Source: Halothiobacillus neapolitanus c2 (lineage in GTDB: Bacteria > Pseudomonadota > Gammaproteobacteria > Halothiobacillales > Halothiobacillaceae). Taken from it: 64,000 nucleotides of DNA. Shown here piece by piece: positions 12,778-63,496 of this stretch. Position numbers and translations under genes: made by a program. Under the pieces are notes generated by a model. The model saw only the letters and a program-made list of their open reading frames with translations. It was not told where the DNA came from and ran no database searches. The DNA is taken from contig NC_013422.1 of assembly GCF_000024765.1 (NCBI RefSeq), positions 1,073,501 through 1,137,500 on the forward strand, written 5' to 3'. The first letter of the stretch is position 1; every line of letters starts with the position of its first letter.

Positions 12778-13512
12778 ATGCACGTACTCGTATTCCAACA
12801 CGTTCCTTTCGAAGGTTTGGGTGCGATGGCGCCGTGGCTGGATGCTCGAAACGCACAAGTGCAGGTAATCCGGCAGTACGAACCGGATTCGGGCATGCTC
12901 CCCGCGCTCTCTGCCATTGACCTGATCATCGTGCTCGGCGGCCCGATGAGCGTGCATGATACCGATCACCACCCGTGGCTTGAAGCCGAAAAGGCCTACA
13001 TTCAATCGGCCTTACGTGCCAAAACCCCGATACTCGGGCTCTGCCTCGGTGCGCAGCTCATCGCCGAGCAACTGGGTGGTGCCGTGCGCAAAAACCGCTT
13101 GCCCGAAATCGGCTGGTGGCCCATTCATTGGCATGCGGCGGCCCAGCATATCTGGCCTCAATGCCACTGTGCCGAGAGGCCAGAGCTTGAAGCCATCGAA
13201 GCGGCCGGTACGCGTGTATTCCACTGGCATGGCGAAACCTTTGATCTGCCAGCCGAGGCGCACTTGTTGGCACACAGCGCTGCCTGCGCGAATCAAGGTT
13301 TCCTATTTCGGGATCATGTGGTCGGGTTGCAATTTCATCTGGAAATGACACCCGAAACGGTCAAGCAATTGATGATGAATGCAGAGGATGAACTCGTCGA
13401 TAGCCCGTTCGTTTCAACGGCTGAAAAGATAAAGTCGGAGCCCGCCGACACCTACGCACTAAACCAGCGCCTTATAGGCGAATTGCTGACATACCTTGTC
13501 GCTCCCAGATGA
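12778..13512 (+). CDS. Class I glutamine amidotransferase-like protein
   Basis: Stand-alone class I amidotransferase domain resembling the GMP-synthase-like or gamma-glutamyl-type proteins. The nucleophile is Cys89 in GLCLGAQL, and the His/Glu pair is His187 and Glu189 in QFHLEMTPE. HWHGETFDLP lies in between. It is 244 residues from the ATG at 12778, which has CGGAG just upstream; a longer frame overlapping alr is rejected. It follows alr by 41 bp. The acceptor substrate or partner is unknown; many such proteins are annotated as GMP synthase without evidence. Confidence 0.85.
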   Translation: MHVLVFQHVPFEGLGAMAPWLDARNAQVQVIRQYEPDSGMLPALSAIDLIIVLGGPMSVHDTDHHPWLEAEKAYIQSALRAKTPILGLCLGAQLIAEQLGGAVRKNRLPEIGWWPIHWHAAAQHIWPQCHCAERPELEAIEAAGTRVFHWHGETFDLPAEAHLLAHSAACANQGFLFRDHVVGLQFHLEMTPETVKQLMMNAEDELVDSPFVSTAEKIKSEPADTYALNQRLIGELLTYLVAPR

Positions 13513-13590
13513 TCGTAGGCGTTGAAATCCCAGTAGATCCTGGTTCGTTGTTTCAAGAATGCCGTTCAAGAAATAACCCTGTAGATATTG

Positions 13591-13619
13591 ATGACATTCA
13601 GATAACGACGCGCTAGAAT
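13591..13619 (+). promoter_or_regulatory. Sigma-70 promoter for the 32-aa membrane peptide
   Basis: ATGACA at 13591-13596 and TAGAAT at 13614-13619 each match consensus at five of six positions with an exact 17-bp spacer. Transcription would start about 24 bases before the ATG at 13650. Confidence 0.6.
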
Positions 13620-13649
13620 GTCCTTATAAACTTGATTGAGGTGAAAACT

Positions 13650-13748
13650 ATGTCAGCGTTCAAATTCGAAAACTTCCCATTGACCTTCATCATCGGCCTG
13701 ATTTGCTTCGCATGGCTCTCATTCTTGAGCGTTATCACCTTCGGTTGA
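13650..13748 (+). CDS. Orphan 32-residue single-pass membrane peptide
   Basis: Too short for usual gene callers. The ATG has GAGGTG six bases upstream, a good ribosome site. The peptide starts with a short polar segment (MSAFKFENFP) followed by about 20 hydrophobic residues containing GLICFAWLSFLSV, so it should sit in the inner membrane with almost no soluble part. It is preceded by a near-consensus promoter and followed 42 bp later by a strong terminator, making a complete monocistronic unit of about 190 bases. I do not recognise the peptide. Alternatives are a type I toxin (no antisense RNA promoter was identified), a small subunit of a respiratory or transport complex, or a chance ORF in an sRNA. 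Confidence 0.6.
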   Translation: MSAFKFENFPLTFIIGLICFAWLSFLSVITFG

Positions 13749-13790
13749 TTCAATAGCTCGACCGCGCTCAAAGTTTGGTCGAAGCAACAA

Positions 13791-13812
13791 AAACCCGCCA
13801 ACAGGCGGGTTT
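13791..13812. terminator. Strong intrinsic terminator
   Basis: Perfect 9-bp stem AAACCCGCC/GGCGGGTTT with loop aaca, followed by TTTG. It ends the small membrane-peptide unit on the plus strand. The same stem recurs at 14875-14896. Confidence 0.85.
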
Positions 13813-13894
13813 TGTGGTTTAAGAGCGGGCGAAACCCTAGAAAGTCAGGCAACGCGAAGGCGTTACGATTCTGACCTTATCCAACAATCGCAGA

Positions 13895-14194
13895 TCAGCA
13901 ACCAAACCGGCACACATTCATACCCAAAAACTGATCATAAGCCTCGCCGCTACGCAACCAATGCCACATATGCGCTTCGAGTTCATTGCCCGTTAACGCC
14001 GTTTCCAACTCACAAAACGTACCATAGGGAAAACGCGGGCTACCCTTCGGTTCAGCCACCACCGTTGTATCCTCCACAAACAGACTGAAATCCGGCTCTT
14101 CAAATCTAAAAGCAGCAAAAGCACCACCTCCGTGCTCGGCAAACAGGCGCTCAACTTGTTGGTTAAAATTTGAAAGGGTTATAGGTCTGAACAT
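13895..14194 (-). CDS. Hypothetical protein, 99 aa
   Basis: I do not recognise a family. The 99-residue product is soluble-looking, acidic in the middle, Phe-rich, and contains a Gly-rich turn (EHGGGAFAAFRF) and two Trp in HMWHWLRSGEAY. It ends with two Cys (CRFGC). The start ATG at 14194 lies in FRPITLSNFN context with AGG upstream in the leader. It sits between the terminator at 13.8 kb and an AT-rich segment, so it belongs to the accessory pocket. It is probably a real gene, judging by length and lack of a competing frame. Confidence 0.55.
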   Translation of the reverse strand: MFRPITLSNFNQQVERLFAEHGGGAFAAFRFEEPDFSLFVEDTTVVAEPKGSPRFPYGTFCELETALTGNELEAHMWHWLRSGEAYDQFLGMNVCRFGC

Positions 14195-14380
14195 GGCGTA
14201 ACCTGGAAGGTTTTATCAAATGGATTAGTTACTGAGCTTATCAGGGGATGAGTCGGGTGGAAAAGTGAGATGGACCCAGCTTCATGCCCAGCATTTGCCG
14301 TGTTCAAAAGCCCGTAGGTTGGGCTAAGCGTCGCATATTAATTTTTAATCTGCTAATCATTATATTTATCTCTTATCTTA

Positions 14381-14845
14381 TTATTTTGTTATTAATTTTA
14401 TTAACTTATCATTTGTTTTTATTATCTTGCTGATGTTATCTTGGTTGAGAGTATTTATTTTGTATAAATCAAGAATTTGGTCGCTTAGAATATCTATAAA
14501 TGAAGCAAATATGTAAAACATAGCTCCAATCGATGCTAATACCAGTTTTGCTGTTTCTGGTCGATGTCTTGGTCTATAGCTTTTTAGGTAGTGATAAACT
14601 CTCACGATTAATCCGCAAGTGGCTGTGATAGCTGCGTACTCAGAGCTTTGGAAAATAGATAATTGTACTGCGGCGCTTATCCATAATGCTGCTTCAATTA
14701 AGTCTAACGAAAGATCGGTGTTTATTTTTTTTGTAGAATTCGTGTTTAAACTATTTTTTTTGATGTAAATCGATACAGCTGCAACGGCCACGATTAAGTT
14801 TAAAATTGCTGTGGTGAGTGATATGTAATTATTTACCGTGTCCAT
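14381..14845 (-). CDS. AT-rich orphan membrane protein, 154 aa
   Basis: Unrecognised protein with three to four hydrophobic segments: residues ~8-28, ~50-66, ~70-86 (weaker) and ~103-122. It is rich in Asn, Ile, Lys and Ser and ends in a polar Lys/Asn-rich tail. Its DNA is far more AT-rich than any neighbour, with runs of A and T and rare AT-ending codons, which indicates recent acquisition. The ATG at 14845 lies 30 bp after the nrdB terminator. No partner gene is adjacent except the 99-aa orphan. Function unknown; a small phage-exclusion or toxin-type membrane protein is possible but unsupported. Confidence 0.6.
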   Translation of the reverse strand: MDTVNNYISLTTAILNLIVAVAAVSIYIKKNSLNTNSTKKINTDLSLDLIEAALWISAAVQLSIFQSSEYAAITATCGLIVRVYHYLKSYRPRHRPETAKLVLASIGAMFYIFASFIDILSDQILDLYKINTLNQDNISKIIKTNDKLIKLITK

Positions 14846-14874
14846 TGTTGTTCTAATTATCTTATAGATTAAAT

Positions 14875-14896
14875 AAACCCGCCATTCGGCGGGTTT
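14875..14896. terminator. Intrinsic terminator of nrdAB
   Basis: Perfect 9-bp stem AAACCCGCC/GGCGGGTTT with a four-base loop (attc). On the minus strand it follows the nrdB stop by 10 bp. Its stem is identical to that at 13791-13812. Confidence 0.85.
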
Positions 14897-14906
14897 GTTG
14901 TTTCTC

Positions 14907-16103
14907 TTACCAGTTTAGCGCGCCACCTGTTTGGTAGTCGGTGACTCGGGTTTCGAAGAAGTTTTTCTCTTTTTTCAAATCAATGACTTCGCTCATCCAA
15001 GGGAAGGGGTTGGTCGCCCCGGGGAAGAGTTCGGCGAGACCAATCTGGTTGCAGCGGCGGTTGGCAATAAAGTGCAGGTATTCGGCGCACATTTCCGCAT
15101 TCAGACCGAGCAAGCCGTGCGGCATGGTGTCGCGAGCGTAGGCGATTTCGAGCTCCGCGGCTTCCTTGAGCATCCGGGTGACTTCGGCCTTGAAGTCTTC
15201 GGTCCACAGATGCGGGTTTTCGATCTTGATCTGGTTGATCACGTCGATACCGAAGTTCATGTGGATGGATTCGTCGCGCATGATGTACTGATACTGCTCG
15301 GCGATACCGGTCATCTTGTTGCGGCGGCCCAGAGAGAGGATTTGCGCGAAGCCAGTGTAGAACCACATGCCTTCGAACACGACGTAAAACGCGACCAGAT
15401 CACGCAGGAAGTCTTGTGCGCCTTTGGTGGTGCTGGTATCGAAGTCACCATCAGCGAGGTTTTTGGTGTACTTGAGTGCCCACTCATCTTTGGCGGTGAT
15501 GGAGGGGATTTCGCGGTACATGTTGAACAATTCGCCTTCGGCTAGACCCAAGCTTTCCACGATGTACTGGAAGGTGTGGGTGTGCACGGCCTCTTCAAAG
15601 GCTTGACGCAGCAGGTACTGGCGGCATTCGGGGTTGGTGACCTGCTTGTAGATGGCGAGCACGATGTTGTTGGCAACGAGGCTTTCAGCGGTGGCGAAAA
15701 AGCCCAAGTTACGCATGATCATGGCGCGCTCGTCGGCGGTGAGTCCGCCATCACGGCCTTTCCACAGGGCGATATCGGCTTGCATGGAGACTTCGGTCGG
15801 CATCCAGTGGTTGTTGCAACCGGCGAGATATTTTTCCCAGGCCCAGGTGTATTTCATGGGCAGGAGTTGATTGACGTCGGCGGTGGCGTTGATGATGCGC
15901 TTGGCCGATACATCGACGCGGCCCGCACCCTGCGCGATGCCTTCCAGACCGGTTTGACCGTGTGGGGACGCGTGATCGCCTGAGTCGACGGCCTGGGTGA
16001 CGTCCGTTGTGTCGTCCATCGCTGAGGTCATGTTCGACATCATTTCGGGCGTCATGCCCGCATTCGGGTTTGATTTCGCTTCCAGTTCGTTCCAATTCAA
16101 CAT
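14907..16103 (-). CDS. nrdB: Ribonucleotide reductase small subunit, R2c (Mn/Fe) type
   Basis: Small subunit of class I ribonucleotide reductase, which holds the metal cofactor that starts the radical reaction in NrdA. It is 398 residues with a low-complexity N-terminal ~65. The metal ligands can be placed: Glu140 in FFATAESL, Glu171 and His174 in [10 protein letters not shown], and the later pair in [11 protein letters not shown]. The residue where E. coli has the radical tyrosine (Tyr122) is Phe178, and the first ligand is Glu and not Asp. Both are hallmarks of the Chlamydia R2c subclass, which uses a Mn(IV)/Fe(III) centre and no tyrosyl radical. The start has AGAGGAA upstream. It lies 47 bp downstream of nrdA in one operon. 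Confidence 0.95.
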
Positions 16104-61989: not shown

Positions 61990-62159
61990 GACGCCCGAAA
62001 CACTTGGCCCGTGCCCCAGTTGCTGCATCAGAAGATGATATGCAAAGCTACTTGAAAAAAATCAAATGAACCAAACTTTAAGTTAGAGTATTGATCATAA
62101 GCATCAGGTTCTGAATGAACCGAACTTGCTTTAACTTTTTTGGAGAACGAATTCCTGCC

Positions 62160-63089
62160 ATGAAACGAATTATTCTGTTTTTACTGACCAACCTGGCTGT
62201 CATGGTGATCCTGTCCGTCGCCTGGTTTGTAATTTCCAAGGTATTCGGCCTTGGCGTGACGATGGATAAGAATGGCATCAATTATGGCTCCACTCTTGTA
62301 CTGGCCGCGGTATTCGGTTTTGGGGGTTCCCTGATTTCGCTGATGATGTCCAAGTGGATGGCTAAGCGCAGTGTAGGAGCCGAGGTGATTGAGCAACCGC
62401 GCAATGAGGCTGAACGCTGGTTAATGCAAACCGTTGAGCGCCAAGCAAAGATGGCTGGAATCGGTATGCCGGAAGTCGCGATTTACGACTCACCGGAGAT
62501 CAACGCATTCGCCACGGGTGCGAGCAGAAACAACGCGCTGGTCGCAGTGTCCACCGGCTTGCTTGCCAACATGACGCGTGATGAGGCAGAAGCCGTATTG
62601 GGCCATGAGATTGGCCACGTGGCAAATGGCGATATGATTACCTTGACCCTCATTCAAGGTGTGGTGAACACGTTTGTTATCTTCTTCGCGCGTATCGTCG
62701 GTTATTTTGTCGATCGCGTTCTGCTCAAGAATCAGGGTGATGGTCCGGGTATCGGCTTTTATGTGACCACGATCGTGGCTGAGATCATCTTCGGGATTCT
62801 GGCAAGTATCATTGTGATGTGGTTCTCCCGCCAGCGTGAGTTCCGTGCAGATGAGGCAGGCGCTCGCTTTGCCAGCCGTCAGAAGATGATCTCGGCGCTT
62901 GAGCGATTAAAGTTGAATTACGACACGCCTGCTCAATTGCCCTCGCAGATGACTGCGTTCGGCATTTCAGGTCACCGCGGTTCATTTGGGCGCTTGTTCA
63001 TGTCGCATCCACCGCTTGACGAACGCATCGCCGCCTTACGTCACGGTCAATCCTCAGGCTTTGGCGCGCGTACCGGTACGGTGCAGTAA
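62160..63089 (+). CDS. htpX: Heat-shock membrane zinc protease HtpX
   Basis: M48 metalloprotease that degrades misfolded membrane proteins with FtsH. 309 residues from the ATG at 62160 (GGAGAA upstream). Zinc motif HEIGH at 149-153 and the third ligand Glu in [10 protein letters not shown]. Membrane helices at ~5-25, ~45-63, ~165-185 and ~205-225. A CpxR or sigma-32 site was not recognised. Confidence 0.95.
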
Positions 63090-63144
63090 TAACGGATGAC
63101 GATCTTCGGGTGGTTTGGGTCGATCCCAAAGCCCTAATAGCTGA

Positions 63145-63190
63145 AGCCTGCTTATTGCAGGCTTTTGTTTGCAGGCTTTTTGTTTGCAGG
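63145..63190 (+). terminator. Terminator after htpX with a duplicated right arm
   Basis: AGCCTGC (63145-63151), loop ttatt, GCAGGCT (63157-63163) and TTTG. The right arm repeats as GCAGGCTTTTGTTT, GCAGGCTTTTTGTTT and GCAGG at 63157-63190. Confidence 0.8.
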
Positions 63191-63280
63191 ATGCGGAACT
63201 TGTCTTTTTAGCGTAGGCTCAAACGTAAAAGCAGGCAGTAAGCACAAACTATTGCCGTGATCGTGTTCAGAGGTTTCCTG

Positions 63281-63496
63281 ATGACTGTTTTATATTTATT
63301 TGTTCCGTTGAGTATGGTGGTTGCCGGGATCTTGGTCTGGGCTGCATTCTGGGCGATCAAGAACAATCAATACGAAGATTTGGAAGGTCCCGCCCACCGT
63401 ATTCTGATGGATGACGATGATCCTCGTATTCCGACACAGCCTCATTCACCTGAGGATACCAAGTTGGAATCAAAGTCACCTCAAAGTAAGAGCTAA
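63281..63496 (+). CDS. ccoS: cbb3-type cytochrome oxidase assembly protein CcoS
   Basis: 71 residues from the ATG at 63281 (GAGG upstream). One membrane helix (LFVPLSMVVAGILVWAAFWAI), then the family hallmark YEDLEGPAHRILMDDDD and a polar tail. CcoS is needed to insert heme and copper into cbb3 oxidase. The ccoNOPQ and ccoGHI genes are not in the window; here the gene stands alone, followed by a terminator. Confidence 0.88.
   Translation: MTVLYLFVPLSMVVAGILVWAAFWAIKNNQYEDLEGPAHRILMDDDDPRIPTQPHSPEDTKLESKSPQSKS

Follow-up and report, generated by a model that had tools for sequence, protein, structure and literature searches.

Cytochrome cbb3 is a high-affinity oxidase of microaerophiles, and annotation readily overlooks the small subunits of terminal oxidases. 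According to published accounts, some of these subunits came to light late, through structures or mass spectra (PMC9264385); the cbb3 subunit CcoM has 36 residues (PMC10433244) and is needed for stability of the oxidase, not for its activity (PMC8267372), while CydX is a small transmembrane accessory protein of cytochrome bd oxidase (PMC6134056). The 64,000-nucleotide stretch of the Halothiobacillus neapolitanus c2 chromosome analysed here (the window) holds a 32-codon gene whose product we regard, with moderate confidence, as a small single-helix accessory subunit of cbb3-type cytochrome c oxidase (or an assembly factor for it). Tiny accessory proteins of terminal oxidases are a known kind; a description of this one was not found in the open-licence papers searched.

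The locus has the parts of a free-standing gene (Table 1). A complete, self-contained tiny gene encoding an unrecognised peptide had been proposed from the letters alone, and so it proved: searches of the peptide and its relatives against Pfam and NCBIfam (FixQ, FixS and CydX models included), and against PDB chains, returned no match beyond chance. Matches of the family profiles to the mineralocorticoid receptor and to other PDB entries were discarded as chance (E 0.2 or worse). The two promoter hexamers, -35 ATGACA (13591–13596) and -10 TAGAAT (13614–13619), each agree at five of six positions across a 17-bp spacer, exactly as predicted, and the GAGGTG site six bases from the ATG and the hydrophobic 32-residue frame lie where they had been placed. 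The perfect terminator hairpin is likewise there, but its stem is 10 bp and the predicted 9 bp one short; the scan gave this hairpin on the minus strand only, the plus-strand T run presumably having been counted into the stem. The gene is single-copy in its own genome, and neither Rfam matches (at gathering score) nor tRNA genes were found within the 64-kb window. Further along the window, two minus-strand ORFs of 99 and 154 residues (13895–14845) separate the peptide gene from ribonucleotide-reductase-like genes, and a second terminator-like hairpin (14872–14899), with the same ACCCGCC/GGCGGGT core as that of the minigene, lies just beyond the minus-strand ribonucleotide-reductase-like gene at 14907–16103, on its 3′ side.

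Table 1. Positions of the minigene and of the ccoS region within the window.
Feature	Position	Strand	Basis or remark
Sigma-70-type promoter, ATGACA-N17-TAGAAT	13591..13619	+	Motif scan
Ribosome-binding site, GAGGTG	13638..13643	+	Sequence reading; 6 bases 5′ of ATG 13650
ORF, 32 codons, single-helix hydrophobic peptide MSAFKFENFPLTFIIGLICFAWLSFLSVITFG	13650..13748	+	Conservation, pN/pS, fold, hydropathy
Intrinsic-terminator-like hairpin, perfect 10-bp stem, AAAACCCGCC-AACA-GGCGGGTTTT	13790..13813	+	Hairpin scan
htpX-like protease gene, 5′ of ccoS	62115..63089	+	Named by eye
ccoS, cbb3-oxidase assembly gene	63281..63496	+	PF03597, E 3.2e-20; TIGR00847 above cut-off (L118:12782-12994)

The original prediction held that chance agreement of these signals was unlikely. 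Taken alone, the promoter match is not significant, judged by the counts of promoter-like sites against those expected from shuffled sequence (one found against 0.4 expected in a 401-bp stretch; 8 against 12.3 in 20 kb). Chance is expected to yield a promoter this good in a stretch of this kind, as would suit a chance ORF; conservation and synonymous bias contradict this reading, which we consider scarcely credible. The agreement of the signals taken together does go beyond chance, because the peptide is conserved, its codons show synonymous bias and the position of the promoter is kept.

Conservation of the frame in close relatives, one of the two findings on which the prediction had been staked, is nearly complete. 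In a search of 40 genomes, 24 of the 25 from the same family (the window's own among them) gave the peptide, each with E no higher than 2.5e-6; the remaining one, G004 (270 contigs), has ccoS and gave no peptide match. It belongs to g1, the genus of the window; some genomes of the family's genera g3 and g4 also bear the name Halothiobacillus. Among the 15 genomes outside the family, G033 is the sole one with a relative (E 0.0165; E 3.0e-5 with a profile), and weak second matches inside long frames of G005, G007 and G034 were dismissed as chance. The suggested check for synonymous bias also came out in favour of a gene: over a core of 27 codons, mean pS and pN among the nine g1 genomes with the peptide are 0.741 and 0.101, a ratio of 0.136, with pS near saturation in the genus; the ratio is 0.204 in nine g4 genomes and 0.234 across all 24. 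When the same number of substitutions was placed at random on this core, all being weighted alike, none of 2000 trials was equally conservative for five of eight pairs, and the other three gave P values of 0.001, 0.002 and 0.008. Each of the 24 family loci has a start codon preceded by GAGG or GGAG, and a perfect hairpin of at least 6 bp stands within 130 bases of the stop in 22 of them (none in G010 or G022); that of G013, 107 bases from the stop and with no T tail, is not terminator-like. The frame is under purifying selection, and the 32-amino-acid gene is real.

Folded from its single sequence, the peptide is predicted to form one helix over residues 4–31 (mean pLDDT 87.9), and its highest 19-residue mean hydropathy is 2.45; by prediction and hydropathy it has the short single transmembrane helix that characterizes CcoM. 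In the alignment, the N-terminal stretch is aromatic (FxFxNF) and the other end, W-L-S-F-L-S-V, is conserved.

The distribution of the peptide ties it to cbb3 genes. A first profile (A1), made from 15 peptides of the family, was matched at E ≤ 1e-3 to a class sample of 369 genomes, 190 of which are positive for the FixS/CcoS marker PF03597. The peptide occurs in 49 of the 369, spread over 24 families, and every one of these 49 has FixS/CcoS; it occurs in none of the 179 ccoS-less genomes (Fisher p 2e-16, related genomes being counted as independent and the marker being ccoS, not ccoN). The match in G077, one of the 49, falls within a frame of 475 residues (E 8.6e-4); it is probably due to chance but was kept in the count. 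A wider 38-row profile (A2) was built largely from class matches of A1, so that its search is partly circular; at the same threshold it gave 53 of 53 peptide genomes FixS-positive (p 9e-18), and at E ≤ 0.01 55 of 56, the exception, G129, being a 10-codon match with E 0.005. Among the FixS-positive genomes, 141 of 190 have no copy detectable with A1 (137 with A2), and thus the oxidase has no general need of the peptide. In a phylum-wide sample, matches at E ≤ 1e-3 appeared in 4 of 398 genomes; three, the own genome included, belong to the same class, and the fourth is a partial match in a 200-residue frame.

Where the peptide is present, its gene usually adjoins ccoS. It lies directly 3′ of ccoS in 40 of the 49 genomes, a count that includes G059 and G130, where ccoS adjoins the peptide gene; in at least 38 of the 49, from at least 18 of the 24 families, the start of the peptide match is 93–377 bp past the FixS match, on the strand they share. 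The same order is seen in all 15 family genomes outside g1. The ccoS gene is often itself 3′ of a P-type ATPase gene: ATPase, ccoS and peptide genes are consecutive in the Solemya velum gill symbiont (L095) and Thioalkalivibrio sulfidiphilus ALJ17 (L099), where the ATPase was named by eye, ccoS stands between ATPase and peptide genes in L132 and L136, and two such ATPases were tested as copper-type (L128, L133). Since this assembly gene is the commonest neighbour, the peptide could instead be a transient cbb3 assembly factor, absent from the finished enzyme, which would assist CcoS and the copper ATPase CcoI in supplying CcoN with cofactors. Adjacency to ccoS suits such a factor no less than a subunit. 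The promoter that stands between ccoS and the peptide gene in g4 and the linkage to ccoN in five genomes suit a subunit somewhat better, but are also compatible with an assembly role; on balance we regard a transient factor as possible and rather unlikely.

The nine genomes of the 49 in which the peptide is not beside ccoS are G000 (H. neapolitanus c2), G113, G091, G098, G327, G067, G207, G079 and G077. The gap is ~50 kb in G000, 7.4–7.5 kb in G067 and G207 and ~1.5 kb in G079, and the two genes are on different contigs in G091, G098 and G327. In G113, the peptide gene is present as two diverged tandem copies (L131:4536-4863), on a contig other than that of ccoS. Loci apart from ccoS bear on the proposal that the peptide is a small membrane regulator with no tie to respiration, found near ccoS by happenstance. 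The gene lies apart from oxidase genes, and 3′ of an amidotransferase-like one, in G001, G002 and the window; in G067, G207, G098, G327 and G091 its neighbour is an rpoH-like gene (profile-tested in G067), with no adjoining ccoS. However, the absence of the peptide from every ccoS-less class genome speaks against happenstance, and the rpoH-like gene also stands 3′ of a ccoS-peptide pair in other genomes (e.g. L095, L099), so that the rpoH-only cases look like leftovers of the ccoS-peptide arrangement. We therefore consider such a regulator improbable.

The original prediction had likened the peptide to small membrane regulators or type I toxins. A regulator is conceivable to the extent just given, though an accessory protein of respiration is the better fit; the toxin likeness was not supported. 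Small size, hydrophobicity and a compact transcription unit are what a toxin of a type I toxin-antitoxin pair would show, but the gene is present once in its own genome, is conserved across 24 class families, is in fixed association with ccoS and has cbb3-oxidase genes as neighbours in most relatives. Nor was an opposite-strand promoter-like site, or an Rfam match, found near it: the strand opposite has none in 13500–13900, and the nearest among those listed is downstream, at 14517. Copy number, context, conservation and the lack of a nearby opposite-strand promoter led us to reject a toxin, which is very improbable. Because relatives keep the peptide, usually beside oxidase genes, it is likelier to be an undescribed part or helper of the enzyme.

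In H. neapolitanus c2, linkage to cbb3 genes is lacking, the peptide gene being ~50 kb from ccoS and ~0.9 Mb from ccoNOQP. The ccoN, ccoO-, ccoQ- and ccoP-like set is near 2.01 Mb, with ccoO, ccoQ and ccoP assigned by position and likeness, and an extra ccoN lies at 1217027–1218412 with no peptide gene in front. Its ccoS lies 3′ of the htpX-like gene (the two spanning window positions 62115–63496) and not of ccoI; a P-type ATPase gene resembling ccoI sits with ccoNOQP (L149). A similar htpX-like gene precedes the ccoS-peptide pair in at least three g4 genomes (L051–L053).

Elsewhere in g1 the link is to ccoN. In five genomes of the genus (G003, G005, G006, G007 and G008), an extra ccoN is the next gene 3′ of the peptide on the same strand; this ccoN passes the TIGR00780 cut-off in L033, L034 and L038 and is assigned by likeness only in L035 and L037. 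A hairpin stands between the two genes in all five, which are therefore probably separate transcripts rather than one. In six g1 genomes, namely that of H. neapolitanus c2 (L148:4950-6452) and those of L033, L034, L035, L037 and L038, the extra ccoN is seen with no ccoO or ccoP alongside and is followed by a helicase-like gene; the peptide is 5′ of it in five.

The promoter accompanies the gene at these differing sites. A motif [A/G]TGAC[A/T]-N17-TAxxAT starts 55–61 bases before the start codon in 17 of the 18 genomes of g1 and g4: as [A/G]TGACA-N17-TAxxAT in eight of the nine peptide-bearing g1 genomes, whether 3′ of the amidotransferase-like gene or 5′ of ccoN, and as GTGAC[A/T]-N17-TAxxAT in all nine of g4. 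The g1 exception is G009, where the peptide gene adjoins ubiB and the conserved promoter is absent; nor was the promoter seen at that place in the six family genomes of g2 and g3. Since the promoter is kept at differing g1 sites, promoter, ORF and terminator appear to have changed place together within the genus, and the peptide family thus includes a unit that has kept its parts at different sites within one genus.

These observations can be joined in a working model of a cbb3 accessory peptide. The free-standing minigene would produce a single-helix peptide that acts with the cbb3-type (C-type haem-copper) oxidase; it would insert in the inner membrane and pack on the enzyme, CcoN being the obvious candidate, and may help its assembly or stability, as CcoM does in Pseudomonas stutzeri and CydX in cytochrome bd. 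The membrane location is our inference; binding to the oxidase, and any effect on it, is suggested by analogy with CcoM. Its own promoter may yield more of the peptide than of the assembly factor CcoS. In support of an accessory role we count the co-occurrence with ccoS, the position beside ccoS or ccoN, the purifying selection, the one predicted helix and the CcoM precedent; against it stand the FixS genomes with no copy, the unlinked locus of H. neapolitanus c2, the hairpin that parts the peptide from ccoN, the lack of likeness to CcoM and the absence of the promoter in g2 and g3. Two properties expected of an accessory protein were found, occurrence only with cbb3 genes (by the ccoS marker, in the 369 class genomes) and linkage to them. 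The broader proposal is that of an unnamed cbb3 subunit that takes the part played by CcoM in Pseudomonas and is encoded, in two genera, by a promoter-gene-terminator cassette able to leave the oxidase genes. Such a subunit would be present in 13 to 14% of the sampled class genomes (49 or 53 of 369), amounting to over a quarter of the 190 that bear ccoS; we hold this to be an evenly balanced proposition.

Set beside the small proteins of known oxidases, the peptide is like CcoM in form and shows no sequence relation to it or to any family model. CydX is likewise a small accessory protein of a terminal oxidase, but serves another enzyme, and no model in Pfam or NCBIfam recognises the peptide. 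CcoQ (FixQ) is a small membrane subunit of the cbb3 oxidase itself; the H. neapolitanus c2 genome, however, has a separate CcoQ-like ORF of 77 residues (L149:6515-6748), assigned by position and likeness between the ccoO-like and ccoP-like ORFs. CcoS (FixS), a small cbb3-related protein and the usual neighbour, is encoded by a separate gene, and this genome has both. Membership of the CcoM family was considered and rejected, as neither hhalign (probability 0.1) nor the A2 profile search detected a sequence relation. The comparison used chain N of PDB 5djq, named an uncharacterized protein in the entry, which we take to be P. stutzeri CcoM from its length and organism; searches of the PDB with A1 and A2 did not list 5djq at E ≤ 10. 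A single-sequence search with CcoM gave a strong match in one of the 369 class genomes, G185, which is FixS-positive and is not among the peptide matches. A conserved candidate subunit outside Pseudomonas would show structural biologists which extra helix to seek, and help explain how cbb3 is put together there. What the peptide shares with CcoM is a length of ~30–36 residues, a single helix, predicted in the case of the peptide, and a tie to the cbb3 oxidase.
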